From assembly GCF_041381155.1 (NCBI RefSeq), contig NC_091142.1, positions 21,104,362-21,168,361 on the forward strand: a DNA stretch of 64,000 nt, written 5' to 3'. Position numbers and translations under genes: made by a program. Of the stretch, positions 16,000-62,673 are shown in pieces. Source of the DNA: Argopecten irradians. Taxonomy: Eukaryota; Mollusca; Bivalvia; Pectinida; Pectinidae. Within the stretch, counting starts at the first letter, position 1, and every line of letters begins with the position of its first letter. The notes below the pieces were generated by a model, which had not been told where the DNA came from, ran no database searches, and saw nothing but the letters and a program-made list of their open reading frames with translations.

Positions 16000-18245
16000 G
16001 TTAAATACGTATGCATGTAGTAATCATTGTTGAAAGAGTTGAAATATTGTCGATATATCAATATTTCAACAATTGTATTACTGATATACAATATTTAACT
16101 AAACAAAAATTCGAAACTTGATAACGTTTATGTAGTCCTCTACAATGCATATCCTATGTAAATCTAGAAAACGCAAAATGCAGAAGACAAATCGTATTTT
16201 GTTTGCAATTATGATGACGTCCCTACATAAAATAATGATTGACGTAAAACGCATTGTAACCGTTGAAATGCTACATATATCCCCGTTCAAATTTTCCACT
16301 ACTTTACGTACAGCCGTTTAATAAACAATTAATAAAAGATAAAAATAGGAAACATTTATCGCATTTTGTGTGTAGTGAAGTGTGTAGTATTTTGTGTGTA
16401 GTGAAGTGTGTAGTATTTTATGTGTGTGTAGATTACCTACATTTAATTCTTCTAGAATATACAACAACTTATCAAAAATTGCTAACCCAAAATATTGGGT
16501 GGATATTTTGCAGTTTTTTAACAGAACATATTTACTGGGGTTTAGAATACAATGTTAGCATTTTTGCATAACAGTTGAGAAATTCAAAATAATCCATTGG
16601 TGTTATGAATTCGCGGATATAGCGAAAATAAACCGGAACCCTACGAAATACTCTATATACATACGATATGTTTACAACTCGTTTACGACAAAAAATATCT
16701 GTAAGCGTTTCCTTGAATACTTAAAGAAACAATTCTTGAAAGAGCTAAAATATTGTCACTGTATCGATTTTGCAACTATTGTATATACATCATATACCAA
16801 ATATGCCGGGGATACGACGATGTGAGGTTTTTGTTGATTAACCAAGCGACACAAAATAGGAAAAGAAAAGGTACCTCGTTCCGTTTGTAGATTCTGACAA
16901 TGTTCCTGTAGTCTATCTGCAATGCATATCATATCAAATTATCAAAAACTATGTACGATGCCAAAACACACTACAAAGATAAACTGCTATTATAAAACAA
17001 TACGACTGTGGGGAAAAAGTGGAAGACGCTTGTATTTCGTTTGCAATTTCTGATGACATTCCTTCATAAGCTAAGGTGTGATGTTAAAACTCTTGTAAAA
17101 GCTTAAGATATTGTCACTATTCAAGTATTTCCAGAGGTTTACGTACTGGCGTTATAAATACCAGTTCAAAAAAGAAAGAAAAAAGATGAAAGACGTACCT
17201 TGTTCCGTTTCCAGATTTTGGCAATGTTCCCATAGTTCCACTACAATGTATATCATATCAAATTATCATAAACGAAAAACGATGCTAAAGACTATTGAAA
17301 CATATACTGCAATTATTTCGAGACTTTCACAAAACTTTGGACTTGAAAGTATTATTGATGTTGAACATACTATTGGATAAAACATAAAATGTAGAGAACT
17401 TGTCACACTTTATATGGAGATTCTGATAACAAATCTAAACTAAATTATGTTTCATATTCAAAAGTCATTAAATAATGTATGAAGTCAAAACTCTTGTAAC
17501 GGTTAAACTGTTGTTATTATTACAATACTTGCACGAGCTTACAAAGTGACGTGTAAAACACATCTAAGGAAAAGGCAAAAAGGACTAAATATTAAAATAT
17601 ATCGTTTACCATGTTTGATTACATTCATTTAGTTCACCGAAATATAAATCTTGTTATTAATAGTCTAAAGAATCACGCGAAAAGGGCTGTCACTATACCT
17701 CTATTTTGATATTTTAACAAATACCTTGTTTATTTTATCCAAATTTTCATACAACTGTTGGAGTGTAATTTAAGATACGATTAAATTACATGCAAAAATA
17801 TGAAAGGCTTAATACATTTCGTTTGCATATTCTGATGACGTTCTGTCATAAACTATCGTATGGTGTCAGACATATCGCACCAGTTTTGCGTAATGGCGTT
17901 TTAAATACCACAAAATTAAAGACAAGAATGTGATCACATATTGTATTTCTTGTCTAGTGTCTTATTACCTTCAAATAGTTCTTCTAATATATATATATAC
18001 TGTTATAATGACACAAACATATACGTATAATTACATCAGCTTTGTAATTATGCCGCTACTTTGACGAATACATCGTTGATATACAAAATATGGTGAAACA
18101 ATAAGGTGTGTGTGTGCGTTGAATTCATAAAATGACAAAAACGGACAAAATCATTACCTTGTTCCTTTTGTTTCCTCTGACCATCAGATATGTTACGCTC
18201 GGAGAATTGATAGGGTTTTTCTGAAAAACACATTGTTACAAAAGT
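16000..18245 (-). repeat. Diverged tandem exon/intron unit array
   Basis: Blocks of roughly 150-350 bp recur with recognisable landmarks on the plus strand: GTATTTCGTTTGCAATT..TGATGAC, then TGATGTTAAAACTCTTGTAA, then ATATTGTCACTAT, then GGCGTTTTAAAT. Copies were seen starting near 16,030, 16,190, 16,730, 16,975, 17,205, 17,480, 17,820 and 18,030. The array carries the micro-exon copies described separately, so host exon amplification is the likely origin. Confidence 0.55.
16875..18220 (-). CDS. Tandem micro-exon group, candidate micro-exon gene (part 2)
   Basis: Minus-strand exons 18220-18158 (63 bp, KPYQFSERNISDGQRKQKEQ), 17983-17969 (15 bp, ELFE), 17240-17199 (42 bp, ELWEHCQNLETEQ) and 16916-16875 (42 bp, RLQEHCQNLQTER). 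All have AG/GT borders and phase 1-1, so they stay in frame in any combination. The two 42-bp exons are clear duplicates with surrounding intron sequence also repeated. Further copies that have lost splice sites or frame are visible near 17,600, 17,820, 17,045 and 16,190. Charged, Gln/Glu-rich peptides of this kind could form short coiled coils. This is inference. No known protein recognised. Confidence 0.5.
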
Positions 18246-18324
18246 CAAAAAACAAAACTAGAAAAATCACAAACCTTGCGCATTCATTTCGATATTTTTA
18301 CAAATATATGCTATAATATTTAGG

Positions 18325-18445
18325 GGATGTGGATGTGGCGCAGTGGTAGAAGGCGCAGGTATGTTTGGCTAGGCGATTGGGTGCCGTAGATCGTGAGTTC
18401 GATGCCCGGATAGGGCACGAGTCAATAAATTGTCATGCTTTATTA
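18325..18445 (+). mobile_element. tRNA-derived SINE head
   Basis: A box TGGCGCAGTGG (18,336-18,346) and B box GAGTTCGATGCCC (18,395-18,407) in the expected order, within GATGTGGCGCAGTGGTAG. The box spacing is longer than in a true tRNA and no CCA or matching acceptor stem is present. A short T-rich tail follows. Typical of mollusc tRNA-type SINEs. The 3' edge is uncertain. Confidence 0.6.
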
Positions 18446-18449
18446 AATT

Positions 18450-19258
18450 GTGTTTCTGTGATATTTGCTATAATATTCAAAACACTGCAGAGTGTGATTT
18501 ACATTGTATACTTGGCCCCGTTTAAAACAATACTTCTCAATGCGTAACTGTGAGTACATGCTTCATTTTTAGCGTGTGCTTAAAATCTCGTTCTGTATCA
18601 CTTGTATTATTTGGACCTATCAAATTTAAGAACACGTCATCACCATTAACGGGGAATGCTATAAAAATATACTAAAATGTTTTCACAATGGTTTCCAATA
18701 CGCTACGACATTTCACTTGGATATTTCTCAATAGATGATACTTGTCTAGATATATATCGAATGTTTAAAATAGATGATATATCTAAGGTTTTTGCGGTCT
18801 CTGTCGTAAATTGGAATGGATTGTCAAAAACCGGAAGTAAAGTTCGTCGCAATAAATGATAAGAGGCGACCCATCTGGACCGAATTCTTAAAAAAAATCG
18901 CATACGGACATAAACCAGATATTATATCACAAAAACATATGAATTGATGTGAAATTGTTTTTGCGACATGGTTTTCAGAAATAAGTCAAATATCATCTTA
19001 GCATTGGATGAAATGGGGATAGCGTTGTGAGTTACAAACTACAAGCGTACAAAATTGTGAAAATTTGTTCGAGGATCCCATGTCTTTATATGATATTTGA
19101 AAAATATATTATGCAACAGTTTTTTATATTGGTTTATCTTTCGAAATTTAGGACAAAATTAACAGGACTGAGACTACATTTTACCTTAATATTACAGAAA
19201 ACATAATTTTATGATTTTTTCTATATTCGGTGAGCAGATGTGCACGGATGATATTTAG
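18450..19258. other. No gene recognised
   Basis: AT-rich sequence. Nothing resembling an exon, RNA or known repeat was seen. Confidence 0.4.
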
Positions 19259-19400
19259 AGGTTATTATATGACAATTTTGATATCGCACCCTTTATCAGC
19301 CCGATACCGCCATATCATCCCAAGGGCCGCAGGCCCGAGGGCTGATATCAGGTCAAGGGCTGATAAAGGGTGCGATATCAAAATTGACATATCATAACCT
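19259..19400. repeat. 142-bp palindromic fold-back
   Basis: The left arm AGGTTATTATATGACAATTT (continuing to 19,302) pairs with 19,357-19,400, which ends AAATTGACATATCATAACCT. The inner arms CACCCTTTATCAGCCC and GGGCTGATAAAGGGTG are perfect. The centre holds GGGCCGCAGGCCC. Same size and design as the palindrome at 3,115-3,252, but a different sequence. Confidence 0.75.
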
Positions 19401-20292
19401 TTTTATCACACATTTTGGAAAAAAAAAGGTAAAGAAATTTTAACAATTTAAATACATCTATTAAAACGTATTGATCAATGGCCGATATTCCGCTGGTCAT
19501 AATGTAGGCCAATTTAATGTTGAATCAGTGGAAAAACTTCATTACATGTACATGTATATGTTTTTAACAAATACATAATCCCCGGTTAAATGAACGAGTT
19601 GAAAAAACAAATTTTAAGCAAAATTAACAAGATCCTATTGAAGGCTAACTATCACTTAAAAAATGATAATGTTCAACAAATTCTGGCAAAGCGGGTTCAT
19701 TTCAGAATGATCAGTTTTACAACGGACAGGAATTATGAATTCGACGGGAAAATTTAAACTACATGTATTAAACTGTCTAATTTATTCCTGTGTCTCTTCT
19801 TCTTGACAAACGCATGTCGTTGATTTCATTTATACCGAATTCATTCTTTTTTGTGTTATAATTATGTGAATTCCGATGCTTTGTTTTCGGCACTGTGGAC
19901 AAAACTCATTTCAACCTGATCTTAGTTAAGACAATATCTCCAGTAAAATCAATATGAAACAGACTATTTCTGATTTCTGATATCTTTCTCAATACGTTTA
20001 TCCGAGAGCTATTTTGAAACTGAAAATAGTATCCGTTATTCAACTTATCGTAAGTAGGAAACTGAATCGAAGCGGCAACTCTAAAATCCGGAGTGAAAAC
20101 CCCGGATGACGTGATATTAGCCCGGGCCGATAACTGGTATCAGCCCGGGCTGATAACTGATATCAGCCCGGGCTGATATCAAATTATGACGTCATAATGT
20201 GATATCAGCCCGGGCGCTGATATGACGGCACGGACAGCACTAGTATCGCATGGGCAAAACGTTCATTATCAAAGACAAAAGTGTGATAAATC
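19390..20292. repeat. Possible element bounded by inverted TTTATCACAC ends
   Basis: TTTTATCACACATTTTGG at 19,400 and CAAAAGTGTGATAAATCC near 20,277 are inverted copies. The palindromic cluster at 20,112-20,224 lies just inside the right end. No coding sequence. May be a small DNA transposon derivative. Confidence 0.35.
20112..20224. repeat. Cluster of GATATCAGCCCGGGCTGATA palindromes
   Basis: Four to five near copies of the self-complementary word TGATATCAGCCCGGGCTGAT occur within 113 bp, interrupted by AATTATGACGTCATAAT, itself a palindrome with a CRE-like TGACGTCA centre. Confidence 0.8.
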
Positions 20293-20729
20293 CCATATAT
20301 CAAATATTTCAAAAGGTGGTTCAAGAACACATATTTTTCTTTACAGATTTAAAATCTGCATGAAAAATGCTAAAAGTATGGAGCTACCTTAATAGAATTT
20401 TTTTATCTATTTTTATCATTTGTTTATCGAAAAAAAGTATTCAGTTTGAGAATGGTTATTTTGTACTGATGACATAAATCGCTGGCAGTATTTCGCAACG
20501 AAAATAATATATATATCTACTCATTGACAGTCTTGAATAGTCTGGATGATTATTTTATAAATTCTGTGTTCAAATATATCAAGTTTCGTTTTAATAATGA
20601 TTCACACAGTGTTTTTTATGATTTTCATAGCATGTCAATTGTATAGCAAGTTTGAAATATGTGCTTTTCGCTGGTTTTGAATACATTATTAAAAAAATAG
20701 TTTTACATTTTCACATTTTTGTTTTTTTC

Positions 20730-22010
20730 TCAATATATGTCATCTGTTGGCATTGTATATTATATTCAAAAGATACCCGACCCCTTTTATATCGGTTAAG
20801 ATAAAATGAAAAAAAATAAATAAATACGGCCAAATCTGCAAGAAATTCAGTGGCCAACAAGGGGTAATAATAATGAAATACACGAATAATGTGAAAGCAA
20901 TTATGTGCGTAATGTGAGCTACACCATAAAGAACTACACGGTACATTCCTGGAAGTAATGAGATACTGTTTCATTTTCAGCAGAGCAAGTACATGTACAA
21001 GCTGAACTGTTAGTAAGATGATCATGGTAAACAATCCATGTTTAAGTTACTACAGGAGGTTCGAAGTTGACATAAAATAATATTTGCTCTTCTGAAACCT
21101 TCTGATTTGAAAATTGATAATGATTCACTATCAGAGACAAAATCTTTATTTAATTGTTTACATTAGTTAGGAATTAGTAGTGTTAATGTTGCGACACATT
21201 TCAGGAAAATCAAAATTGTTTGTCTAAGTGGGTAAGACTTGTCAATTTTGATTATTAATCATAGGATTAAGATATGTCGTAAGTATTCAGGTGTTTTTTC
21301 ATGCATAATTTTGTAACATCATGATTTGTTTGTCTTTGTGTCTTCTTAACAGTAGTGTTTCCCACCCTGTTGTATAGTTTGTCATTTGATACCCCAGAAC
21401 GAAGACCTGCTATTATCCTAGCTGCCGCTAATTGCACAGATTCAAGACGATCCTTTGCCTGTTATGAACAAATTATCACTAATAATATCTGTATATTGTA
21501 ATATTGGAATATAGAACCTACATATATTTTGACTAATGATTTCCTGTTGACTTTAGATTTGACATGGCGTAGGATATTATGTTTATTGTAAGCTTTATTG
21601 ATTAATATTATGAAACGGTTGTTTCCATGTCGTGTCGTCTTGAATAATAAGTCCTAAGTGTTGATGTGGAGATGTGTCTGTGATTTGGCTACTTTGAAAG
21701 GATAACAAATTGTTTTCAATTTAAATGTTGTAACAAATATCTCAAAAACACTTAGTTTTTTTCCATGATTTTACTGAAACAAGATGTGATGTATATTGGT
21801 CTATAATTTGATATTAGTTGAGCCATTTTCTTTGTAAATAGCATTAACATTTCTTTGGTTCCAGGTTTATAGCTATTATACCGGATTCTAATGTCTTATT
21901 AAAAAATAGCATCAGAGGTAATTTAAGAGAAGAACTTAGCTTCTTCACAGTTTTAGGAATAATGACATCAGAGACTGGGGGTTTATGCTTGTTTATAATT
22001 TTATTTCTTC
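20730..22010 (-). mobile_element. Second LINE remnant (C-terminal part of a reverse transcriptase protein)
   Basis: Minus strand from about 22,010: early RT sequence (LFFNKTLESGIIA, then a YRPI block near 21,790), then, after a deletion of the palm core, the post-RT region ESVQLAAARIIAGLRSGVSN (near 21,420), EKTPEYLRHILNP and the C-terminal cysteine motif CSAENETVSHYFQECT (near 20,960). Stops and frame changes are frequent. The AAARIIAGLR and zinc-knuckle-like order is typical of mollusc LINEs of the CR1/Jockey group. Confidence 0.65.
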
Positions 22011-34138: not shown

Positions 34139-37100
34139 TCACAGAGCATCATTTGGCTTAGAATCATTTTCAGTTGTTATACGTAAATGAGTATTATCCC
34201 GATTTCCGTAGAAGTTGAATAAGACTAACTCTCGGAAAGACAAACTGCGGTCAGTTTTGAGCAGTGGTATGGTGACGTCACGGCAGGCGGGTCCCCATTC
34301 TGTTGTTGGAGTGGTGGAGATCCTTAGGCGCTATAATTAACATTCAAATTCAAATGCATACGTTAATGATTGAGTAATTATTCTATTCAAGCCTAATACA
34401 AATGTAAACTCACTAGATGTATTACCTCGAGCACTCGACATAACATATATTGTATATCGTGTTGAGCCCTGGAGATACTATATAACATGAAACAATCGTG
34501 GGACTTTCTTTCGTGGGTTGGAAATTTCGAGGGTAAAATATTTGTGTTAAGCAGATGGAGCAAATTTTTCTATTCATGGTTGCATAGCAACAATGAAAAC
34601 AACAGCGAAGATTTCATGTTAAAAGTAATAGGTCGAGCGCTTGGGATGTCACAGAACATTGGCTACCGTCCTTGGATACGACACTGTCATATCCGGGGCA
34701 TGTCTCAGAAATGAATTATAGAAAATGTTACTTCATTATATTTTTTTATACTCTCGAATGCATGCTTTTTACTTTGCATTGTCAACTTTAGCTATAATCA
34801 TATTGCGAATAATCTAAATATAAATATATAAGTAATCAAGGTATTCTCATTGTCCATAGTAATTTAATACCTTAGCCATCACCATAATTGTTATTACTGT
34901 ACCTTTTTCAGAGATCCTTTCTGTGTAATGATAATCCTGACCGCGTACAGGATGATGGGTACAACTGAGGCCAGAGAGAAGCACCATCCAATAGCCGTGG
35001 CGTAGGTAGGGTAAGTATAACTCCCCAGGGTTGGGGGTCGATAGGTGTACACGCTTACCACAAGTAGGAACTGAGCAAAGAATTGACAAAACAAGTACAG
35101 TCTCATCTCTAAAGACCGCCCAAATGGCCATTTATATACTAGTGGTCTTTATACACAGGTAAAATTTTGTTTAAATTGACCATTGGGGTACCAAAGAAAG
35201 TGGTCTTATACAATCATTTCTATAGACAGATCTGTCGCCTCGGTGTTCTATCAAAAAGTTTGGTTTTATTAGTTAAACGTCCTATTAACAGACATGGTCA
35301 TGTAATTTAAGGACGTGCCAGGTTTGTTGGTGAAGGAAAGCCGGAGTACCCAGAGAAAAACCACCGACCAGTACCAACGTAGTCCCGTTTTATCAGAATA
35401 GGGCAGTCTTTCGTCAGAGATCTAGTCGTATATATGTTTCTATTGTATGGGCAAAGGTCTTCTTAAATATTTACAGAAATGTATTATATTGATTCATTCC
35501 AAATGTACTAGAATGTAATATCACTTGAATACCGTGTTGCTAGTTGGACGCTGATGTGGCATTCTAAATAAAAGTATATACGTATGAGCAGGACTGCTTC
35601 ACAAATATTGTCAGATAGCTGTGCATTAAACTTCGCATTCCGATTTCTCAAATAGAACTGCAGATTTAAATCAAAACGATTTACAAAAAAAATTCACTGT
35701 GACCTATTTTTTGACACTAAGTTATATTTTCCAATATGTTTTATTTTCAACATATCAATGCATTATCATTCTTTAAATATCATTCAAAAATATCATTTGA
35801 TTCCAGCAAAACTGAACAAAACAGATAATTGACCTTCCTATTTAACCTCACATAACTGACAAGGAACTACGACCTGACCTTACGTATTAGTCCTATCATG
35901 ATACCCTAACCCCCCGGTATCTGTGAACAAAAATAATGTTTATCGGTCATGGCCACCAAAGGACCCAAATAGACAATCTTTGTTTCGGGGTCTGGAATGA
36001 CCTTTGATAATGTTAAGTGAGTTGAAAATTATTTGCACCCATCATTTAATTTCAAGTTCATTTTGAATATATCGTATAAAGCTGTATATATGAGGATATT
36101 TAAGACTACTGGGAACTCACCAGTAGAAACATTGGCATAATGAAAGCACAGCTAAATCTGATGAGTGCTGGTAGAGGCCTTCCGAGCATCAGCTGTATAT
36201 CTCTATCAATCTTGTCCCCACCTACAAAGCATTGACTGAATTGAATATCATCACAATATCATATGAATTTATATATTTAATGATTATCATAGTACGTGTA
36301 TTACTTGCTTTCGTTTGTGTGTAATACAAGATCTCCATTACAATTGTATTGTCTTTTTTCACCAGACAATCTAATTAGTATTATGCTAAATGAATACTAG
36401 TCCGTTGGTTGTGTGAGTGAGAGAATCTCTACAGAGTTTGTTTTACAGACAGCATCCCCTTTTAACAAACAAGTTCAAGGTCCAAACACACACTGCTCAA
36501 CGTACAACGAAGTATACCAAAACATGTTAATCTAATAATTTGTGTGACAGAATACACCATATACCGAATCATTAACATACTGGATCATCACCATGTTGAA
36601 TTATCACTGATTCATCGCCATGTTAAATAATCATGAATCACATGCGAATCATCACCAAACCACATGCCGAATCATCACCAAACTCAATCATCACCATGCC
36701 GAATCATCACCAAACTCAATCATCACCATGCGAATCGAAATCATCTCTGAATCATCATCATCTGAATCATCACTGAATCATCACCATACTGAATCATCAC
36801 TGAATCATCACCATCTGAATCATCACTGAATCATCACCATACTGAATCATCACGAATCATCACCATGAATCATCACTGAATCATCACCATACTGAATCAT
36901 CACTGAATCATCACCATACTGAATCATCACTGAATCATCACCATACTGAATCATCACTGAATCATCATCACACCATACGAATCATGAATCATCACTGAAT
37001 CATCACCATAGTCACTGAAATCATCACTGAATAGTCTGAATCACCATCACTAAATCATCACTGATCATCATAAGCCACCATGCTTAGCCATCACCATGTG

Positions 37101-40100
37101 CAAGATGATTTTGACACGTTTAATATTTTAATGAAAATAGACAAAATATCACACCGCAAAACATTTCTGTATACTATGCTACTTTTAGGCAAGTATCTTT
37201 TAGCATACCATATATCCAAAAGAAAACGATAGATTCTCCTATACAGATCAGCATGATACTCCAAGTAGCGAGATACCAGTCAACCAGTTGGAACATGTAG
37301 ACCCCAGCCTGTAAAACGAAACGCAACACCACGTGCATTTCGGGAAAATGAGTATGTGAACCACTCCACCACCTTTACTAATATTATAAAATTGCTTTAA
37401 AACACGCAAAGGGGGATTCATCGCGTCTGAAAAAATTGGACCGCACATTTGCGATATATGTATAACGACATAATTAGTTCAACTATAAAAATAGCATACC
37501 TTTGTAGCAAAAGGAATGCTCAGCAAGAGTGCAAGAACGCTAAACCCGCCTAGTAACCATGGACGTTTATTGTGTAGAAAGCTTGGAAAATTTTCCTCCA
37601 AGATTAGCATTACCGGTTCAGTTTCAATGGTCTGCAACAGAAATACAAAGTGAATGATGAAATGAAGAAACCGACGAGTTATTGGCAACGCCGCGTCATA
37701 TTAGACAAATGAGAAAGCTTCCCTTCAGCAGATTTATAAGACAACAGCAAGGCTTTTCTTAAGTTCTAAAAAGATTTTTAAAAACAACGTTGATACCATG
37801 TTCTATGTCAAGCACTATAGAAGCCCAAAGTCTGGTAAAATCTTACCATAGCATCAATGCCCGGTAAAAGAAGCGTGACAAAAAACAAAACGCACCAAAC
37901 TTGTGGCAAGGGGAAATAACTCAACGCCTTTGGATACGCAATGAACCCAATCGAAAATCCACCTATAATAATAAAATACAACAGTATTTATCTTACAGAT
38001 TCATCAGTCTACGGAACATATAAGTATGTAAACGTTTAAAACAAATACAATATACAAGTGCGAAACTGCATGATAAAATAGTGGATTGAACTTACAAATG
38101 TTAACAATATTTAGTTCATGTCGATTCCGCTATACGTGATGCTGACATTGACACGCATTCATTCACATGCACGGAATAGCATCCAACATTCCCTTCCCAG
38201 CCCAGTCATATAATACAGACAAGCATTACCTTATGTCTTTTTATACGGGCGCTAAGCATGAACTTCAGATACACCCAAATGGTGATTTTTTTCTGTAGGA
38301 CAGAATTTTTAACTATGATAAAAGGGTTTAGAAGATCCTTTTAATATTGACACAAACGAAGCGCATCGTATTTGTTATTTTTCATCAACGATTTGACGGT
38401 TTATGTTGGGTATACCAGCAGAGTGTCCCAGCTGCAATCTCAATTTATTGTACAAAACATACAGACAATACTTACCTGATGTAACAGCGTCGGTGATTGG
38501 TACGTTGGCTTCTGACGCCATGACCCCTAACACGGAGAAGACAACCAGTCCATTCAGAAGGCCGTACAGTAAGGTCGCCACTGTCGTGGATACTGCCGCC
38601 CTGTTGGAACATAGTCAAAACGTTCATTGAAATTTAGATAAAATTATTGTCGTCGACATTGTTATTTTAATGGGTCTAGCGAATACATCACGCAACATTT
38701 ACATTATTCTCCTCCTTGTTGATTTTGGTTTATGAACGCACTATTAACGGCTAGGGTTATTGAAGGTCGGTATCGTGTACATGCATTGTGTTGCAGGATA
38801 CTGTCGTATGTTTTGTTGTGACTCTTTGTAACAGTGCAAGTCCTTTAAGTATCATCTGACTGAAGCATACATAAAGAACAAACACATCCAACCCGATCAC
38901 ATAATACCGACAACAGGACAACCAGACGACCCATTTCCCTTAAATCTGGGTCAGAATCTACCACTTTTATAACCTAGGTGTGTTGCATAGGGAACATCAC
39001 CATCAGTCTCCCTCACAGGGGCGAATGATCAACCTGTTTTGTGATGTAAGTACATAAAATAACATTGACTACCTCAGACAATTGGTCCGGAAGTGATTAT
39101 GACATCCCATCATCATGAGTCCTCCCCAACCAGGTCCAAGGGTGTAAAATGTCATAAAGGCGGCTTCAATCCACACCTTTTATAACCCAAAGAGAAAAAA
39201 TATTATTGTTGATAAATAGTACCTATTTAACCATTCATAAAGTTGGCGTCCGGGAGGTTCCCTAATGCATCATTGTGGCTTCAATTCTTCAAAATAGCAT
39301 TAGTCTATATATGTGTATGATTAATGCATCAATTTTGAAAGATATAATGTTGCATACAATGTAAGAATGTTATGAATGTAATAAATGTATGTATATATTT
39401 ATGAACCTATATCAATTGAATACGTTTAATTAATGGAATTTTGAAAAGTATGCTTTTTATATCATAAACCAGCAAATAATACTGCACGTTAGTAGGTTAG
39501 TGGTAAAGTGATACTTATATATGTATGCAAATACATACTTATAGCATCAATAGATACGTGGGATGCTTTGACGCTATACCCACGGCATATCGTGATATTG
39601 GCAGTTACTGCATTAACGGATGCACTATATCCTTCAAAATGTTGAGCAGCATACACATGTACAGGCTAAATGTTATTTTGATATATCTATTAAGATACTT
39701 TATTGCATTAGGAAGTTTACCAGACCTTTGTATCAAAATTAATTCTAAAGTATATAATAAATGAGAAAATAAAATATTCTGGCAAATTTTAAGGGGCAAA
39801 TAAATATAATTTCATATTTAGTTGAATAATTAATAAGTAACGATCGATCAATTACATTAGTATAATACTGCATAAGCGTTGAAAAAACGAATATTATATT
39901 TATAACTCAATTGCTTTGCACATCTTAAAAAGTAATTATCTTCGGTGGTTGTCACTAGTAAGCGGAAGTGAAGTCACAGTTTTCTTCATCTTCGGTATCT
40001 TCAGATTATCAAAAGAGTTTATATTTAATAGGTGTACGGTAACACCACAGTCTCAAACCCAAATCATTAATGTGTAAACTGCACGCTGGAGGTAGACAAT

Positions 40101-43100
40101 CATTAAGGACTAGAAAAATCTCAAATGGTAATTTAAAATGATTTCTACCTCGATGTTACCAAGTTTTGTAAAATCTGGCGTTATAAAGTACAGCATGCCT
40201 TCTGTGGCTCCTGGTAGGAAGAGCGCCCTGACCCAAATAAGGATTACCAGAACTACAGGCAAGATGGCGGTTACGTACATCACCTACAGCAGATAAAATG
40301 TCATAATAATATGTCAATATGGCGGTTACATAGACAATATTCAAAGCACCTTACACTGAAATTGCAGACTAATATGGCGATAATTTTCTATTAAGTCAAT
40401 GCATCGAATGAAAGTTATGAACCGACATACACAGCTCAATATGACACTCAAGTACACCAGGTAACACGTGCAGTAGATTATGTTACAATAATAAACAGGT
40501 ATTTTTTCCATCTGTGATTTACCTTTCCTAATGACTTAACACTTTTCACACAGGCCAGGAAGACGATCACACGGACAACAATGTAGTAGAGAATATACAT
40601 TCCATTAACCTCCCCGATATCTTCTATCCCACTCGATCGACGTAGCACTTTCTTCCTATAATTGAAATACTGCAGTTAATGATTCATTCAAAAGAAGCCT
40701 TTCACTAAATCTTTATCGAGGTTTTATGACCATGCCTTCACAGCATACACATCTAAGACTAGCCACTAAGGTTTGATTGGCGTATTTTACGTCCTAATCA
40801 CAGTCATTTAAGGACTGTCAGGTTTGATGTGATGTTGTAGGAAAACTGAAGTATCAGGAGAAAAATTACGGACCAGCGACCTGTACCCAGTATCACAGGG
40901 ACCTGGCACGATTTTTTAAAACTAACAGTATACATATACAAATTATAGTATCAAGGGTTTGAACTAGGCGGTCGAGAAAAACGGACCTATTTTTTAAAAC
41001 CGTGATCATACCTTAAAGAGAAATAATTTATCTTTCCATTGAGTGCTTGATGAACGAAATTGGCCAAGTATTGACGAAGTTATGGCTTGATATATCGGGA
41101 AATTTACGAAAAATATGCTAGATAGACATTTCCCTGTCCGGTCGAAATGTCGTCTCGGCTCTAATGGGTACCTCAAAAACCAAGCCAAAATCACAAAATC
41201 TACGCTTGTGGTGGTAAACAGTACCCATAACTGTGTTCATCCAAAATCTCCTTTGGAGGTGTCATGACCCGTACTTTGTAGAAACTCCATTAAAACATCG
41301 TCGTGTAGCTCACTTACTTTAACCGTCACCGCCATGTTCATTTTTCTCTCGGAACGCTTCTCGACTTTACATATCGTGACTACATTATGCAAATTATGTA
41401 ATGTTGTGCTTTTGGGTAAACTCGAGAAGCCAGTATCTGCACAATATGGGTTAGAAATGTTCTCCGGAAAACGTTCAGATTACCACGCATATATGTAATG
41501 AAAATATCGGTTTCTCGTTTTTCTCAGTAATAAATCCAATCATCCTTCAAGACAAGCATTTGGTTGAGGCGGGCAAATCTCAACAGTCATAATACTTTGT
41601 CTGGAACCCTCCTGTAGCTGAGAGGTTTATATGTGTACAATGAATGTATGTCTTTGTATATTAAGAAATAATGTGAAGGAAGTTTAAAGTATATATAGTT
41701 GTGTGTTGAATGGGTTTCCTTTTGTGTGATGATGCTTAATGTTATATATTTACAGTCAGTGGTGAATTGATAGTATAAACCCCGTTTGATTTCAACCAAA
41801 GGCTACTCAACTTTATTTCTCGATAGATTGAGTATGTCACGCGCAATTTGGAGCCAAGCGGATGAATTTATGATGGTCCAAATCAGAAACTTTTGGTGTT
41901 TTCAGGACCGAACGTACGTTCGATGAACATGTACATGTATCAAAATAGGTTTTAGAACACATATACATATACGTGTGTAAATACAAATGTAGAAAAGCTA
42001 CATTGTTTATGTTACTACCGTACCTCTTTGAGCAATGCTTCCGTGCGTATGATAAATAAACAATGTTGTACAATGTACAATTTTGCACATTCCGATGACG
42101 TCACAATGTTTACATGTTGTGTGTCGGTGAGGCTGTGTTGTTCGCTACAATATGTAGATCTACATCCTATTTGTATTTTTAACATCTTTGGTTGTACGCA
42201 ATTGGATAAGATATGTCAGGACAACATCAGTCTTTGAGTTGCATAAGTTTAACCAAAACGACCTAGCACGATAATGCATTTTTGTTTGCCTCGGGGGACA
42301 GACAAGTCCGGCGAGAGTAGGTCTTACAACACAATGTACGTTTGGGTGTTTCGAAATATCAATGAAACAGAATCCTACAATTATAGCTTTACAATACTTG
42401 TAATAGATATCTCTAATATTTATTGAAGTGATTGAAACAACAATATCAATATAAGCTACCATTTTGAGAGCGGTAAACTTTTACCTAGTGGGCCTACCTG
42501 TGTTTGTACATGTTCCTCGAAACGACGTCCGATACATTTGAAAATCTCCAAAATCCGGAAATAATGACATGGAACTATGTAAACATCCGTGTATTCAAGT
42601 AATTTCAAACGTGAACTGATTAAGTAGAACTCAAGTGATCACAAAATTGAAGAAACTCTATGTTTGTCACACCTCCTTGACACAGGCAGTTTGAATCGGA
42701 CGACGCGTCACAACTACGTTAAATATCCTGCCACGTTATGAATTGTGTAAGCGTGTGTAATCATACGAAGTAAAAGATTAAAACCAAAGTGCTTTGCACT
42801 ATGGTGTTTTTAACAACAGATAAATAAAACGATTTATAGTTTCATACCGGGAAAACTCCAGATAAATGCTTCATCAGACGGAACTCATTTTATTTGTATG
42901 TTCATTGTTAAATTGGCGGGAATTTCCGCCACTTCGAGTGGCTGTTCCAAATACCTGTCGGACCTAAACGATATAATTCAATTTTAGTCTTATAAATGCC
43001 ATTAACACTATCAAGGGGACATTAATCCTTAAATAATACACTATGACGCATTTTGACGTTTGAATAAAATTTCATTTTGAACGAAAAAAAAGGAGAAAGG

Positions 43101-44288
43101 AAACCTTTTCGCGGTGTAAACCAAATAAAAAACCATATCATTTGACTTACATCCAGAATTCTTCTATAGCCGATACTGGTGAGGAAGTAATCAGTGTGAC
43201 CTTAAAAAAAGAGGTGAAATACAACGCAAGTCTAGGGAAAAAAAACGACAACTACTTATCTATTACCGTTCACAAGATGTTGTCGTGTACTTTAACGTTA
43301 ATATATAGTCAAAGGTAATTTAAAAAAACATTAATACAAGCTGTTGCCTTATTATCATATAACTCAGGTTTTTTTTCAATTGAACTTTTTTAATTAAAAA
43401 TAAGAACATAACGACCTGTTAAGTCGTTTCAAATTTGAGACCATAATATCTCATAACGAATGCATGATTGTGATCTATGATGTACTTATTTCAAATACGT
43501 TTTTAGAAAGTGGATTTCCCGTGGACGAGCTATGCGATGAAATATTCCGGTTGTTGGGACTTTGGTGAAATCCTGTGATGCAATTCTCCGTGTTCCAGGT
43601 GTTGTTGCAGCTGGTCCAAGGAAGCTCGGCTTGGAAGGAATTCACCAGGTACTCGATGATCCAGGATCGCATCGCAGTGTCATACACCAAACTCACACCG
43701 TTGATGATGAGTACAGCTAAACCAAAACCTAGGTAACAAATGGACTCGAATAAGAATTGAAGTTCATTGATAATGTTTTTCACGATCAGTGAATGCTTAT
43801 TTACCTATTCAGGACTCTTGACATATTATAACTTTAATGGGTCAGACTTTCCACTGTCTAATTTAAAAGACAAATGTTCAGGTCACCAAATTTAAAAGGT
43901 CGAAAACGAGTTAAGATAATGGCTATATATCGCAACTTTAAAGATGGGCAGATAAGAAAACTCCTGAACGATCCTAAACATAGCTTTAATCACATAACAG
44001 TTATTCCAAATTTTAGATAGTTCGAAACCAATACGCCACTTCTTAGCTACAAAAGTCATGTGTAAATTTCATGAACAATGAAACCCATTAGAACACTTTA
44101 CTGGCGACAAATCCCCCGTACACCTGTATTATTTCATCACATGGTCTCAAACGTACCTCTAAAATAATGGGCAGATATCCCAGATCCTCCACGGCCCTTT
44201 GCCGAGTACTGAGACATGGCAATCTCTATAAAGTATAGCGGGGCGCCGCACAGTAACATCAGTATGCTATATGGAATAAGGAACGCTC
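34139..44288 (-). CDS. SLC6-family (neurotransmitter:sodium symporter type) transporter, 13 exons, 5' end missing
   Basis: Thirteen minus-strand exons, all with GT-AG borders and compatible phases, encode about 573 residues: 44288-44157, 43728-43499, 43200-43151, 40655-40523, 40283-40149, 39176-39073, 38600-38476, 37962-37847, 37631-37500, 37308-37209, 36221-36121, 35070-34903 and 34330-34139 (stop TGA at 34141-34139). Visible landmarks are TM2 GAFLIPYSILMLLCGAP, the extracellular loop 2 pair SCNNTWNTENC with two possible N-glycosylation sites, TM4-5, TM6 TLGPGWGG, TM7 FSVLGVMA, TM8 LPGIDAM, TM10 AGVYMFQLVDWY, TM12 and the C-terminal WGPA motif. Family members move amino acids, amines or osmolytes across the plasma membrane using Na+ and usually Cl- gradients. 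The substrate cannot be assigned here. The exon carrying TM1 (GNVWRFPY in relatives) and the N-terminus was not found up to 64,000. Ion-site residues are unusual (see findings). Confidence 0.92.
35262..35400 (+). repeat. Dispersed mollusc repeat (GACGTGCCAGG family)
   Basis: TAAACGTCCTATTAACAGAC, GTCATGTAATTTAAGGACGT and GCCGGAGTACCCAGAGAAAA appear in the order common to a very abundant mollusc interspersed repeat. Lies in an SLC6 intron. Confidence 0.6.
35690..35945 (+). repeat. Dispersed ~250-bp repeat, copy 1
   Basis: CACTGTGACCTATTTTTTGA to CCCCCGGTATCTGTGAACAA matches 47,016-47,260 in the same orientation over about 250 bp. Unclassified, non-coding, in an SLC6 intron. Confidence 0.7.
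36570..37090 (+). repeat. GAATCATCAC tandem repeat
   Basis: About 500 bp of TGAATCATCACTGAATCATC with CACCATAC variants, in the SLC6 intron between exons 36,221 and 37,209. Open frames here are a consequence of the repeat. Confidence 0.9.
40770..40960 (+). repeat. Dispersed mollusc repeat, second copy of the 35,262 family
   Basis: TTTTACGTCCTAATCACAGT, CATTTAAGGACTGTCAGG and ACGGACCAGCGACCTGTACC show the same order as 35,262-35,400, more diverged. Lies in an SLC6 intron. Confidence 0.5.
41000..43150. other. Large SLC6 intron, no further exon seen
   Basis: The sequence between exons 40,655 and 43,151 holds no recognisable coding sequence. Short open frames on both strands have no family resemblance. 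Confidence 0.4.
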
Positions 44289-44639
44289 CTGTGAACAATG
44301 GAAAATGAAGAATAATACCTGGTTTACCTTGATAAAGATTTTTTATCTAAACAGATCATTATTACATTGTTGATCTGTATTATAAGGGTATCCATCACTG
44401 AAGATAACGATGGTATCGTTTTATTGCTTGATAAAGACGATTTCTCACTCAGACGTATTGAAAAAATGTATTTCTTTACATGTTTTTAGTTATTAAGTTC
44501 GAGTAGAATTCATATACGTCATCACCAAAATCTAAAATGAAATAATGGTGTCAGAAATAAAAAGGTTTACAAAAAACGTTAGCAAAGCTCTAACTTTGTA
44601 TGGTTTATTGTCACATTACTAGTCAGTGTAATTGAAGGA

Positions 44640-54065: not shown

Positions 54066-56226
54066 AACAAGAGACCCAGAGGGCCTGTATCGCTCACCTG
54101 GTTTGTAATGCCAAGTAATGTGCTGAATACAGGTTCATTGTTTCTTTTCTGAAGGAATTTTTGATCTTAACCTCTAAATCCCCTATTGGGCCCCACCCCT
54201 CCTGCCCCCAGGGGGTCAGAGCCAAAATTTATACAAGTTCTGTTCCCCTTCCCCCAAGGATGCTTATGGCCTAATTAGGTCACAATTCAAGCAAAACTCT
54301 AGGACAAGTAGTGATTTATAGGATTTACTTCTATTTCCCCTATTGGGCCCCACCCGCTTTGCCCCGGGGGCCAGAGCCAAAAATTATACAAGTTCTGTTC
54401 CCCTTCCAAAAAGGATGTTTGTGGCCAAATTTGGTTACATTCCATGCAGAACTCTATGACTAGTAGCGATTTAAAAGGATTTACTTCTATTTCCTCTATT
54501 GGGCCTCACCTCTCCTGCCCCCGGGGTGTCAGAGCCAAAATTTATACAAATTCTGTTCCCCTTTCCCAAGGATGTTTGTGGCCAAATTTGGTTACAATCC
54601 ATGCAGAACTCTATGACTAGTAGCGATTTAAAGGATTTACCTTTATTTCCCTATCGGACCCCACCCCTCCTGCCCCCGGGGATCAGAGCCAAGATTTATA
54701 CAAGTTCTATTCCCCTTCACCCAAGTATGTTTATGGCCAAATTTGGTTAGAATCCATACAGAAACTCTAGGACAAGGACCGATTTATTATAATTTACCTA
54801 TAATTACCCTATTGGGCCCCGCCCCTCCTGCCCCCAGGACCAGAGCCAAAATTTATACAAATTCAATTTTTATTCTTCAAAGGATATTTCTGGCCAAATT
54901 TGTTACCATTCCATGCTAAAAAAACTCTAGGACTAGTAGCCGATTTAATAGGATTTACCTCTATTTTCCCCTATTGGGCCCCGCCCCTCCAGCCCCTGGG
55001 GGGACCAGAGCCAAAATCGTATACAAGTTCTGTTCCCCTTCGCTCCAAGGAAGTTTGTGGCCAAATTTGGTTACAATCCACGCAGAACTCTATGACTAGT
55101 AGCGATTTAAAGGATTTACCTTTTATTTCCTACCTATCGGACCAGAACCCCAACCCTCCTGCCCCCGGGGATCAGAGCCAAGATTTATACAAGTTCTGTT
55201 TCCCTTCACCCAAGGATGTTTATGGCCAAATTTGGTTACAATCTCATACAGAACTCTAGGACAAAGACCGAGTTATATGAATTTACCTTTAATTACCCTA
55301 TTGGGCCCCGCCCCTCCTGCCCCCCGGGACCAGAGCCAAAATTTATACAAATTCAGTTCTTCATTCTTCAGGATATTTCTGGCCAAATTTGGTTACATTC
55401 GATGCAAAACTATATGGCTAGTAGCAATTTAAAGGATTTACCTCTATTTCCCCTACTGGGCCCCACCCATTCTGCCCCGGGGGGTCAGAGTCAAAATTTA
55501 TACAAGTTCTGTTCCCCTTCCCCAAGGATGTTTCTGGCCAAATTTGGTTACATTCAATGCAAAACTATATGACTAGTAGCAATTTAAAGGATTTACCTCT
55601 ATTTCCCCTATTGGGCCCCGCCCCTCCTGCCCCCAGGGGGACCAGAGACAAAATTTATACAAGTTCTGTTCCCCTTCCCCCAATGATGTTTGTGGCCAAA
55701 TTTGGTTATATATCATTCAGAACTTTATGACTATAGTAGCGATTTAAAGGATTTACCTCTATTTCCTCTATTGGGCCCCGCCCCTCCTGCCCCGGGGGGA
55801 TCAGGGCCAAAATTTATACCAGTTCTGTTCCCCTTCCCCCAAGGATGTTTGTGGCTAATTTTGGTTACAATCCATGCAGAATTCTAGGACAAGTAGCGAT
55901 TTATAGGATTTACCTCTATTTCCCCTATTGGACCCCGCCCCTTCTGCCCCCGTAGGGTCAGAGCCAAAATTTAAACAAGTTCTGTTCCCCTTCCCCCAAG
56001 GATGTTTGTGGCCAAATTTGGTTACAATCCATGCAGAGCTCTAGGACAAGTAGCGATTTATAGGATTTACCTCTATTTCCCCTATTGGGCACCGCCCCTC
56101 CTGCCCCCTGGGGGTCAGAGCCAAAATTTATACAAGTTCTGTTCCCCCTCCCCCAAGGATATTTGTGGCCAAATTTGGTTACAATCCATGCAGAACTCTA
56201 TGACTAGTAGCGATTTAAAGAATTTC
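54066..56226 (+). repeat. 13-unit tandem array of ~158 bp with GGCCCAGAGGGCC-type head
   Basis: Starts AACAAGAGACCCAGAGGGCC then TGTATCGCTCACCTGG, then 13 units marked by CCCTATTGGGCCCC at about 54,177, 54,337, 54,497, 54,650, 54,805, 54,970, 55,130, 55,296, 55,454, 55,606, 55,767, 55,923 and 56,080. Each unit also holds GGTCAGAGCCAAAATTTATA, GTTCTGTTCCCCTTCCCC and GGCCAAATTTGGTTACA. Mean spacing is about 158 bp. The several open frames of 65-119 codons here are translated repeat, not genes. Confidence 0.88.
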
Positions 56227-57027: not shown

Positions 57028-60000
57028 CGGGTTCTACAGAAGTTTCGGGATCATCATTGTCCCCTCCTTCATAAAGCGCGACTGTGGTTATCCCACCCAG
57101 CCTCGGTCCCGCACGATGCATTCACGTACCGAGATCATTCACCTGCACGCGTGGAAGCTATCTCAGAAGGCCTCGCTCAGACAGACTTTTCTTCAGACGT
57201 GTCAGCTCGCAAAAGCCTCGAATCGTCCCCGATCAATTAAATCTTCCTCTTCTGTCGTCTATTAGTCACGCTAGAATATCTTCTGATTGGTGTATTGACC
57301 GTAAGATTGTTCTGTTCAAGGCCTCTGTGCAGCTGATTGCGGAATTCCGTCTCTATTTGTTAACGGGACAGAATCTTGCGTCTGGTGCTATTGCAGGCGG
57401 CTATGGGTGTTATCGATCTCGTCTATTCTTGCTCATTGAATAGGGTCAACAGGACTTCTCATATGTCTGGTGATCAGGAATGCTTATGAGCAGTCTAATG
57501 ATCAATCGCGGGCGAAATGCAAGGTTAGAACCTTTGCGACTTTTTTAGCTCTTCTAAATCGATTCTCGTTCCTAGTTGCAATTTCGTCAGAATATATGGA
57601 GTATTAAAGTATTCATTTGGTTTTTTTGGGGTTTTTTTTTAACACTTTTTTTGCGGATGATGGTGATGTTCCTCTCTTTTCTTTTCTTACCTGACTAATG
57701 CAATCTATCTTTGCATAGTACACATTTGTTTACACAAGGGTTAGTTCAATTTGTAATGACTGTTCCAATCAACATTGCAAATGTGTGATTTCGGTCATTT
57801 TTTGATAACTGAAATCCAAGGTGCCTGCCATATGTATGACCCCATTGGACATTAGCTGTCAATGGCAACAAGCATAAATGAAACTAGATACCATACCGGT
57901 CCTAAACAACATGTCTCGAAAAAAATGCCAGAGGGGTACATGGAAAACTATATCGTCCTTCCCCCAACTATAGAGGATTTTGGAATAAAATTATAGAAAA
58001 GCTTAACTCACATGTTGAAAATTAGTAGGTGAGATGATAAAATTTGATATAAACTCACTTTTGAAAATAAAATAATATTGTTTATGAACAGGTCAACAAT
58101 ACTTAAATTGGTGTTAATTGTCTTACCAGGAATGCTTCTTTTGCTTTTTTATCTTTCAACTTTCCGGGTTGTTTCCCTATAAATTAACAAAAAATATAAA
58201 TATGACCATTTGTTATATTAAATCTGAATACAAAATGCAGAGCTAATGACAGTTTATATTAATGCAAACAATAATCATGTGAGACAAAACATGTATTTCA
58301 CTGAAAGGCGAGCGGATTATAACATAAGAACATAATCTTTATTGCCAGGCCGTAAAACACATGAAACTTGATGTCGCTTGCTTCTCAATATACAAGAACT
58401 GTCTGACATATCATGTTGGCTCTGAAGACCTTGCGGAATGAACTGCAGTAATATTCTACAAAGTTTGATATAAACTCACTTTTGAAAAGAAAATAATATT
58501 GTTTATGAACAGGTCAATAATACTCAAAGTAGTGTTAATTGTCTTACCAGGAAAGCTTCTTTGCGTCTTTTCTTTCAACTTTCTGGGTTGTTTCTCTATA
58601 AATGAACAAAAATATAAATATGACCATTTGATATCTTAAATCTGATTACAAAATGCAGAGCTAATGCCAGTTTATAATATTGCAAACACTAACCATGTGT
58701 GACCAAACATATAACATAATCTTTATTGCCAGGGCGCAAAACACATGAAACCTGATGTCGCTTGCTGCTCAATATGCAAACAACTGTCTGCTGCTGACAT
58801 ATCATGTTGGCTCTGAAGACCTTGCGGAATGAACTGCAGTAATATTCTACAAAATATTTTTTTCAGCAGGTTCAAAGTATTGCATAGAACAAGTTGCAGC
58901 AAAATAAGTAAAATTTGGAACCGTGACAGAGAAATAGGTGTGCCATCGAGGCCAGGGGCTACATCTGCATGTATCAACTAAATTCACCCTTTGTCAACTT
59001 GACCGACATTTATTAATGGTTTTATTATCAACCCAGTCTTTCCATTTTAATTCACCTCTTTAGTAAGTCTTTCACCATAAAACGCTTTACCGAGGACCAC
59101 AAATATGGCAAATGAGAATATTCCACATAGGGGATTTTATCGACTTTGGTTTAATTTATTCCTCATACCCTGTTCTTTATGTTCAAGGAAATTTCATTTA
59201 TGCTGCATTTTTCCCGGGTAAAGTAGAAAGAGATACAATCCCTAGCCTGGATTGCCTTGTAGGAAATATTTCGCCACTTTTTTATGTAAACAAAGACATA
59301 CATGAAAACATACTTACTAATATAATTGGGTGGAGGGGTACTATCTCCGGCCTTAAATGATACATCTTCCTCGGGTTTTGTTTCTTTGTCGCTTTCAGAT
59401 CCATCTGTAGTTATGGGGCAATTTGATAGGTATTCATCATGAAACACAATGAAAATGTTTATCAAAACGCGACCAAGGGAAAATTAACAATGATCTTAAT
59501 AGAAACATGAAGTTTATCAATGAGGTATTTTTTGTGTTGGAATTGATCATTTGGAGCAGCTGAAGTAGGTTTTACAGTCCAAATGTGGTTTACGTCTAGT
59601 ACACACATGAATCGTCTTCGTTTTGTGATTTTGTTATTTAAGAAAAAATATGACCATATGTCGAATTTTATCAATGATAGGTTAGTTATTAATTAATCGC
59701 CAACATTATTTTTACTAGGCTTTCTCTCGCCGACTTAAGTCGGCGTTATGTCTTATAGTGAGATGTTTGAAAGACGGCCCCGGGTACGAAAAATTTTAAA
59801 ACTGAAAATATCTTTAGTAAGGTATTTTTTTTACTTAAAGTTCTTTCACTTAACGCCGTATTTCACACCGTTGTAGATATAGAGGTTAGACAACGAGCAG
59901 TTGTTGATTAATGAATCTATCTGAAACGAATGAGTTTTTTCTTTAAATTTACAAAAGACACTTGCATCTCTTTCCCATAACTCTCATAAAAGTACTTTAA

Positions 60001-62673
60001 ATTTTATAAAATTCTGTTTGCTCATATAATATAGCAGACATTCCTTCTTTATAATTATCGCCATTTGTTTCAATTCTGCGCCGTAACTTTTCTTTTGTCT
60101 TAAGTTAGCTTTTTCCGAATTAAAAAAAACTTAATCGCGCTAGTTAGTAAATCGATTTGATTATTCTGATATTCTCCTACTTTAATCATTTCTTCAAGCT
60201 CCTGTTCAGTAGAACAAATCGTTCGTTATATCCTATGTGTGTACATAAATTCAGGGATAAGTGATACACAATGTTAAAAATCAGCTAAGAAAGGATAGAG
60301 TTCATTATGATATATGCATTTGATATCTATCGACAGTTTACAATTAATTAAATGTTGCCTACCTGGATAGCCTCTTCGATCTTGAGCATTCTGATGTCGA
60401 TGTTGTTTTCCTTCAATTAAAAAGAAAAGAAAAAGACAATTTTTTTAGGTGTCATAGCTTTTAAAGTGCGTGTATCTCTTTGCTATATTATGTTTTGTTT
60501 ATTTTGCCCTATGCTTTGGTATTAATTTTTATTTGGAATGAAACAGAATATTTATGTCTTTAATATATATTTCGAGTTAGATCGATGGAGCTTTAACAAA
60601 TCCTCATAACACTGACTTATTACAATTTTCATTGTTTTTAAATCAGCATTCCTTTCAGTCCTGAAATATTATCTTAACGGATTTGTATCAGGGTATTTTA
60701 TTTTCTAATAACCTCAAGCACTAATACATGTATGCGTTTTATAATTCATAAATTCTCTACCTGGATAGCCTCCGTGCTGTGTATTATTCACATTTCGTTG
60801 TTGTCTACCTTTAAACAAACAAAATACAACAAATAAGCCAGACAACAAAGCTAGATTTTATATCGAAAACCATATTGGTTCTTAACATAAATTTAAAGTA
60901 TCTATTTCGATTCCACCTTTTAGTTCCGTCGTCCTTGCCTATATGGAGTCGGAAGGAACCTAATATTATGTGAAAACTATATATTTCCTGTTGCCTTGAA
61001 ACGCACGTTTCTAAATGTTAAGGATATTGTCAGTTGTGTGATGTTCAATGTCCTTAGACTATTTAAAAATTGTAAATGATATTATATCCCAGTGACCTTA
61101 AAGCAGACATACAAATGTAGTATAAATTCGGGCAAGTCGTATAATTCTATAACAGGCAACACTGATACAAATGCATTTCAAAGTTTTGAAATAATTCGAA
61201 TTTAAGATATGCATACGCTTTAACTTTTCTAAACAAATAAACCCAACAAATGAAGATATTGCTGTCATAACCAGAAAGGAAAAAATGCTATGAATTTCAA
61301 CATTATGATAAGATCCTTTTGATTGCATCAACAAAGATTGACTGCTATGCTTAATTGAAGTTGAAATGTGGATTTCCTGAGGTTATTTCCATATATGTGG
61401 TTGAATTTAAATATTGAATGTTTTAATTTTAACTAGACAGATTGCATAACATAAACCATCTCGACTGTTTAAATCATTTTAACTAATATATATTGAGTAT
61501 ATACTACTTACGTTTTTTACCTTTTTTATACCTTGGCTTTTTTCCTGCATCAAAATCAAAATTCAAATATTTACTTATTTTTGTTTCCAAACACGAAGCA
61601 AATGGAAATTCAATTCGTTTGCGATAACGAAAATCACCGTAATATATGACGCCACGTGATTACTACGAATGAACGATAACTTTGTTTTACATTTGCACAC
61701 TGTTAAAAACATGCAGGAAATTTCAAAAATAAATATTTAAGATGTATTGGTATGTTATGAAAAGACTTTTGACATGTTACGTTTCCATCTTCAATCAATT
61801 GAAAATTCATAAGTTTTGATTAATTAAGTTGTAGAAAACATTCAAATGAACAGACAAGCGTGTATGGTGCATTATAAACATGATATTTTACGAACTGTTA
61901 AAGGTTTTTTTCCATGCCTAATGCATGTTTAATAACGTTTTTGAGCTCCTATTTGAATATAAAACACATTAAAACAAGTGCATTGTAAATATTGCAATTC
62001 TCACAACGCTGGTAACTTTTGTTTAATGGTAACATCTTAAAAGCCCATCTTCGTTTGTGAGAATGACGATTATTGCACATATATCCATATTTCTGAATTT
62101 CATCTATGTGATACAACTTTAATAGAATATGTTTCTTATCAGATGCTCTTAACCTCATAGCTGGTATTCTGTTATAAAGAGTTTGCTAAGCTATCATTTA
62201 GATCTAATCTATCGTTGTGACATTTAACTCTGATGCAATATCAAGGCTTTATAGTTACTGATATTGGTATAAAAAATCGAAGCATTCAGCAAAATTATCA
62301 AAGTTTTTAATACTAAAATAGAACAGATGCTTAACTATGTCACTGACCTTATTGTTTAATATTTGATCAATTTTCGGAACTGAAATTCACAAACCCACAA
62401 GATGTTTCTGAATAGCTACAATTTTACAATATGCAGTTAATATGGTGTTAAAGCGAACGACATAACTCTTCTGTATAAATTACAGTCAGTATAGTATCAT
62501 AATTGACCAAATCAAAGTATTAATATATGACATAGTTATTTATTTATAATATAATAATGCATGTGAATTATTAAAACCTACTGAAAACTTTCGTCGTGTG
62601 TTCAGACGAAGTAATAATATCGTCTTTTGTTGGTGTTTCTTCGTAGTTTCTTTCTGTGTTGATATCGACCCAT
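57028..62673 (-). CDS. Cluster of phase-1 micro-exons, candidate micro-exon gene (part 1)
   Basis: Minus-strand exon candidates with AG acceptor and GT donor: 62673-62578 (96 bp), 61544-61512 (33), 60808-60761 (48), 60410-60363 (48), 59404-59318 (87), 58595-58548 (48), 58176-58127 (50) and 57066-57028 (39). All but the 50-bp one are multiples of three, begin with the last two bases of a codon and end with the first base of the next, so any of them can be skipped without shifting the frame. Read this way they have no stops. Three 48-bp exons are related: RQQRNVNNTQHGGYP, KQHRHQNAQDRRGYP and KQPRKLKEKTQRSFP. The 96- and 87-bp exons are also related (GSISTQKETTKK and GSESDKETKPEE). The peptide is hydrophilic and Lys/Gln/Glu-rich, with no recognised domain. 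No function is assigned. Each short exon alone is weak evidence. The shared phase and family resemblance are what support it. Confidence 0.5.
57040..57445 (+). other. Unidentified coding-like stretch on the plus strand
   Basis: Two overlapping plus frames (57,016-57,240 and 57,084-57,443) read, for example, PHDAFTYRDHSPARVEAISE and KASVQLIAEFRLYLLTGQNL. Composition is GC-richer than the surroundings. No family recognised. May be part of an old mobile element together with 56,772-57,014. Confidence 0.2.
58040..58880. repeat. Tandem duplication of ~417 bp containing a micro-exon
   Basis: TTTGATATAAACTCACTTTT at 58,040 and 58,465 starts two copies. Both include CTTACCAGGAA (exon donor), CATAATCTTTATTGCCAGG and CATATCATGTTGGCTCTGAA, and the second ends near 58,860. 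The exon is 50 bp in the first copy (58,127-58,176) and 48 bp in the second (58,548-58,595). Confidence 0.85.

Follow-up and report, generated by a model that had tools for sequence, protein, structure and literature searches.

In schistosomes and tapeworms, micro-exon genes (MEGs) are built from runs of short exons divisible by three, belong to expanded families, and permit exon skipping without frame loss (available sections of PMC7653826 and PMC10399815). The rule given in the available text of PMC7653826 defines them by exons shorter than 70 nt and divisible by three, at least seven exons of which at least half are micro-exons, and a run of at least four. We describe a predicted gene family with this architecture in the bivalve Argopecten irradians, in and around a 64,000-nucleotide stretch of the chromosome-size contig NC_091142.1 (assembly GCF_041381155.1; C9:21104362-21168361), hereafter the window. 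The likeness to flatworm MEGs is one of architecture: MEG exons are 3–36 bp in the accessible part of PMC10399815 compared to 33–93 bp predicted here, and, unlike in flatworm MEGs, the multiplied exon has heptad periodicity and the host is a bivalve. Tandem exon duplications resemble the present case in that duplication occurs within a gene, and they include a bivalve example, the oyster alternative oxidase (excerpts of the review PMC9013439 and of PMC5589949). In the cases listed in those excerpts, one exon is selected from several alternatives or a single exon is duplicated, whereas here all copies could join in series, adding two heptads each. Troponin T likewise pairs alternatively spliced exons that share a phase class with a heptad region, but there the heptads are encoded by separate, conserved 3′ exons (from the portion of PMC2447309 available). 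Searches of titles and abstract openings recovered no bivalve MEG, which does not show that none has been published.

Genome searches of the 845.8-Mb assembly (1508 contigs) with the 42-, 87-, and 48-bp exons located at least five units of the family on C9 between 20.86 and 21.18 Mb in both orientations. Unit and match counts from these searches are lower bounds. Two units (P1 and P2) are on the plus strand at 20.86–20.92 Mb, and three (M1, M2, and M3) are on the minus strand at 21.05–21.18 Mb. Relatives of the 42- and 87-bp exons occur in identical order in all five, and the 48-bp query matched in three of them, where it sits between the other two. Weaker matches to family exons were found on contigs C100 and C176. 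A search of the assembly for C1q listed at least 150 matches out of 241 candidates; a C1q repertoire of this size is typical of bivalves and is in keeping with the host. The window was analyzed together with 49 kb upstream and 20 kb downstream; window coordinates therefore extend past both ends, and negative values lie to the left. The minus strand at ~63.6–58.1 kb is the 3′ part of M1, whose 42-bp intervals form an array at 69.8–76.6 kb with a spacing of ~840 bp. The 5′ exons of M2 lie on the minus strand at 18.2–16.9 kb, and this unit continues out of the window. Exons of a separate SLC6 transporter occupy the minus strand between them, at 44.3–34.1 kb. In a self-comparison of the extended sequence, the 49–64 kb block recurs ~66.6 kb away.

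A sequence-only reading of the window had proposed one gene running from 62673 to 16875, composed of related, tandemly multiplied exons and resembling schistosome MEGs. The micro-exons are mostly genuine features, and comparison of copies between units backs the related exon groups, but the candidate merges three separate things on the minus strand: two gene copies with the SLC6 transporter between them. The likeness to schistosome genes holds for the architecture, and some of the window exons are broken. Both window units are partly decayed, and the window exons alone, drawn from two copies, would not show a complete gene. Unit P1 (C9:20.858–20.883 Mb) is the best kept of the three units compared in full (P1, M1, and M2).

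Eight exons in the window are intact, all on the minus strand, with AG/GT borders, lengths divisible by three, and an open phase 1-1 frame (Table 1). The symmetric phase and length reported earlier were confirmed for these eight; the earlier count of at least 14 exon candidates was not. The eight include the three 48-bp exons of the group ending in GGYP, RGYP, or RSFP and the two 42-bp exons of the EHCQNL group, both of which had been described, a 33-bp exon, and a 63-bp exon that had been missed. The proposed 87/96-bp group stands for its 87-bp member, but the exon at 62673 (GSISTQKET...) has 92 bp and is one base short.

Table 1. Features of the window on the minus strand, in window coordinates
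Feature	Unit	Coordinates	Strand	Description
Altered 57-bp exon copy	M1	63574..63633	-	60 bp, phase-1 stop; M2 and P1 copies 57 bp, open
Acidic-exon copy	M1	62582..62673	-	92 bp, frameshifted relative to 93 bp; open 93-bp forms in M2 (-3870) and P1 (20627)
33-bp basic exon	M1	61512..61544	-	KKPRYKKGKK; kept in M2 and P1
48-bp exon	M1	60761..60808	-	RQQRNVNNTQHGGYP; intact in P1, broken in M2
48-bp exon	M1	60363..60410	-	KQHRHQNAQDRRGYP; M2 copy identical, P1 conserved
87-bp exon	M1	59318..59404	-	GSESDKETKPEEDVSFKAGDSTPPPNYI; splice sites retained in 5/5 units
Candidate terminal exon	M1	58722..58964	-	AATAAA at 3′ end in 5/5 units; two candidate frames
48-bp exon	M1	58548..58595	-	KQPRKLKEKTQRSFP; downstream of candidate terminal exon; in 4/5 units, none in M3
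Second copy of the 58548..58595 exon	M1	58127..58176	-	Broken, 50 bp; M2 copy 48 bp, open
SLC6 transporter copy		34139..44288	-	TM2 to C-terminal stop, without TM1 exon; frame shifted at end of TM2 exon
63-bp exon	M2	18158..18220	-	Phase 1-1, KPYQFSERNISDGQRKQKEQ; borders kept in P1 and M2
42-bp exon	M2	17199..17240	-	ELWEHCQNLETEQ, EHCQNL type; P1 copy with identical borders
42-bp exon	M2	16875..16916	-	RLQEHCQNLQTER, EHCQNL type; kept with splice sites in P1

A scan of the window for open phase-1 intervals that have a fair splice score at each border gave 26 on the minus strand and 10 on the plus strand. With a stricter splice cut, the numbers were six and zero; the six comprise three micro-exons, two intervals within the SLC6 gene, and one interval (7687) left unexplained. 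The comparative phase test is the stronger of the two. P1 was aligned with M1 and M2, and intervals were counted when splice sites were conserved, the length was divisible by three, and the frame was open in both. Conserved open phase-1 intervals numbered 20 on the gene strand versus 1 on the reverse strand, where 8 of the 20 are copies from one P1 array and 2 are nested readings of one 33-bp exon. The corresponding counts were 18 versus 10 for phase 0, mostly the same intervals as in phase 1, and 3 versus 8 for phase 2.

The 42-bp exon is the type that was multiplied. A set of 37 rows was assembled from sites that have AG/GT borders and differ from a consensus at no more than 14 positions, so border conservation within it holds by construction. 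The rows represent 36 sites (L058 and L059 are the same site), and the damaged copies at 73171, 75794, and -707 were left out. There are nine 42-bp positions in M1, seven of them with intact borders and length, and 17 in P1. Of the 31 copies that the M1, M2, and P1 members of the set provide, 1 has a stop when read in phase 1, compared to 10 when read in phase 0 and 24 when read in phase 2. Seven representative exons (21 pairs) share 62–88% identity, and the ungapped identity of their 50-base flanks is 0.18–0.70 except for one local duplicate pair (0.88 and 0.82). Over these 21 non-independent pairs, the pooled ratio of nonsynonymous to synonymous differences (pN/pS) is 0.66 when the exons are read in phase 1, compared to 0.98 and 1.02 for the two alternative frames. 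The repeat unit is 540 bp in P1 and 841 bp in M1, and the only matches between the two are three exon-like places and a single 10-base word. Because the units are alike only at the exons, M1 and P1 multiplied different members of one exon family. In M2, the type amplified in M1 is found at 17.2–16.9 kb and the type amplified in P1 at -0.5 to -1.1 kb; the P1 array units align with M2 at -0.4 to -1.2 kb.

Read in phase 1, every 42-bp exon specifies 14 residues, with leucine at residue 10 in 30 of the 31 copies and at residue 3 in 20. The hydrophobic heptad pattern of a coiled coil is present: over the 38 heptads of the rod predicted for P1, position d is hydrophobic in 76%, position a in 53%, and the other positions in 0–11%. 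The 42-bp exon is thus predicted to be two heptads, mostly with leucine at d, which is a new feature. The P1 product was joined without the one stop-bearing array copy and without the 48-bp exon past the terminal exon. Its exons of 63, 57, 48, 42, and 33 bp are all divisible by three, and 24 of the 26 internal exons joined are shorter than 70 nt, in agreement with the exon size, number, and run of the flatworm rule as it appears in the available text of PMC7653826. P1 therefore appears to be built like a MEG; we do not claim membership in the schistosome families.

The units probably represent a live, duplicated gene family of phase-1 micro-exons, with a predicted coiled-coil rod of 14-residue modules and charged tails. 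The sequence itself supplies the 33–93-bp intervals, the splice borders, the 1-1 phase, the same order in the units, and the arrays of the 42-bp type. The transcript would encode a rod whose modules each correspond to a single 42-bp exon, exactly two heptads long; acidic (net -10), basic (+14), and second acidic (-4) segments and a short C-terminal exon would come after the rod. Because the internal exons start and end in phase 1 and the rod exon corresponds to whole heptads, gain, loss, or skipping of an exon would keep both the reading frame and the register of the coil. Rod length and tail charge could then be changed by exon duplication and possibly by splicing; exon skipping in the family is possible, because symmetric phases would allow it without frame loss. 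We infer function from this architecture only. Our more specific proposal is tentative: the 42-bp, 14-residue, two-heptad exon may act in this bivalve family as a register-neutral quantum, with different members amplified in different copies and with rod length and tails tuned by exon number and splicing choice. If true, MEG architecture would exist outside flatworms with a structural logic of one exon for two heptads, and the separately grown arrays of the paralogues would let selection for rod length be studied as a natural experiment.

Pfam matches to the predicted P1 protein are weak and mostly to coiled-coil families (DUF4472, E 2.7e-6; ZapB; Cep57_CLD_2). DUF4472 is the sole match over the cut-off for the rod, and no Pfam match to the predicted tail was found. 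We read these matches as heptad likeness, with no homology implied, and we read the single PDB match, a ClpB1 chain (E 5.7e-4), as coiled-coil resemblance. A GIMAP/AIG1 coiled coil was considered and rejected; none of the 45 AIG1-domain matches listed genome-wide is on C9.

Several observations weigh against a live gene family, and some of them would suit a dead locus, in which all units would be decayed relics of an earlier gene that were copied as DNA repeats and give no product now. Five exon copies in M1 and M2 are broken, and one of the 17 P1 array positions carries a stop. M1 and M2 exhibit no indel constraint, with 7 gap openings in 462 exon bases and 106 in 5423 intron bases (p 0.72), a laxity that fits the broken M1 exons (63633, 62673, and 58176) and two broken M2 exons. 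A start exon was sought as an ATG with a hydrophobic stretch, and only weak candidates (such as 84393 on the minus strand) were found in the 7.4 kb upstream of P1, at 34–18 kb for M2, and at 98–60 kb for M1. A hydrophobic frame ahead of the 63-bp exon is open in P1 and M3 and broken in M2, has no in-frame ATG, varies in homopolymer length, and may be just a pyrimidine tract. The SLC6 copy lying between M1 and M2, too, is without TM1. Between units, exons pooled did not change more slowly than introns (P1-M2 mismatches, 55/768 or 0.072 in exons and 837/11341 or 0.074 in introns), and pN below pS was not seen, either in the 87-bp exon or in pooled exons. The alignment of the M2 block at 17.2–16.9 kb with the M1 array extends well past the exon, so the flanks are not all unrelated, and our confidence in a live family is slightly lowered because part of the 42-bp flanks aligns between groups. 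Against a dead locus stands the gap deficit of the P1-M2 exons, which have 2 gap openings in 768 aligned bases compared to 152 in 11341 intron bases (Fisher p 0.006), although the exon list was partly built from open frames and the test is to that extent non-independent. Phase 1 is also open in 30 of the 31 copies of the 42-bp exon, and the 540- and 841-bp units resemble each other at the exons only. The reading frame looks kept in P1 and not in the window copies M1 and M2, judging from these comparisons, and we regard a wholly dead locus as quite improbable.

An ordinary coiled-coil gene with small constitutive exons, in which rod length varies by gene and exon duplication with no skipping isoforms, agrees with the conserved splice sites and their fair to good scores, and the heptad module accounts for array growth without alternative splicing. 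No point was found against it, and constitutive and alternative splicing are inseparable on this kind of evidence; we consider it possible, if rather doubtful. Two spots that differ between P1 and M2 bring to mind a secreted or membrane protein that evolves rapidly under diversifying selection, as in reproduction or immunity, and binds through its variable exons. The 63-bp interval has 15 differences in 63 bp and no gap, compared to 6.2% across the 3.8-kb alignment, in which it is the only hot window (binomial p 5e-6, uncorrected for scanning), and 14 of the 15 are nonsynonymous in phase 1. The candidate terminal exon has a gap-free 48-bp stretch with 14 differences. The pooled values (pS 0.056 from 5 changes, pN 0.088 from 34 changes) come mostly from the 63-bp exon, however, and some gap-free hot windows in other alignments fall outside exons; heat alone is therefore no mark of an exon. 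Diversifying selection or gene conversion could explain both spots, a short conversion tract would look alike, and the signal peptide is only putative. A protein of this sort is unlikely. Finally, the micro-exons might encode variable parts of the cytoplasmic tail of the SLC6 transporter, which is on the same strand and interleaved with them and whose TM2 exon also starts in phase 1. The upstream neighbor copy opens with a long coding frame of its own that includes an ATG and TM1. In both copies TM12 is followed by a C-terminal exon, whose stop was read in the window copy; SLC6 is therefore a separate gene. No SLC6 TM2 match was found near P1, P2, or M3 at E 0.001. The tail-exon explanation was rejected on these grounds and is extremely improbable, and a live micro-exon family remains the account that we prefer.

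All three SLC6 exons tested, which belong to 44.3–34.1 kb, match PF00209 (SNF domain) over the cut-off. In the window copy, a pattern search of the minus strand gave no TM1 motif, a separate search gave no TM1 match there, and its homology to the neighbor stops at 44595, before TM1. The window copy is probably a pseudogene, judged by these features. Its core motifs are unlike those of the human dopamine transporter, for example YTLGPGWGGLMMMGCHNHF near TM6. TM1 scores are poor in two close relatives (C9:23.94 and 24.04 Mb). The first coding frame of the neighbor (L017, C9:21227849 region) has a long run of a ~10-residue repeat (DTSGNVMDTRENVTDTSGNV...) ahead of TM1, to our knowledge an unusual N-terminus for a transporter.

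Individual exons vary among the units. The bases of the 63-bp interval in M2 could alternatively be part of a longer 5′ exon, and the M3 interval counts 64 bp, hence is frame-shifted. The 93-bp acidic exon of M2 and P1 reads GSDINTETNY.ETPTKD.... The 87-bp exon has this length in M1, P2, and M3 and is 84 bp in P1; the M2 copy is frameshifted by one base. P2 carries additional bases in its candidate terminal exon, and one of the two candidate frames there contains a stop. The second copy of the downstream 48-bp exon was not seen in P1, P2, or M3. On the minus strand at 58853-58039, the 3′ part of the candidate terminal exon, its AATAAA, and the next 48-bp exon are duplicated ~0.4 kb downstream.

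A minisatellite of 13 copies of 157 bp at 54170-56225 is also present in M2, and related sequence occurs in P1. The plus strand at 5044-7902 has mobile-element-like frames: one is Ser/Arg-rich, 185 aa, without a Pfam match over the cut-off, and another of 144 aa contains a phage-integrase N-terminal SAM-like domain (PF02899, E 2.2e-5), which we take to be of the kind in tyrosine-recombinase retroelements. Open frames on the minus strand at ~92–94 kb (L011-L012) resemble those of a LINE endonuclease and reverse transcriptase.

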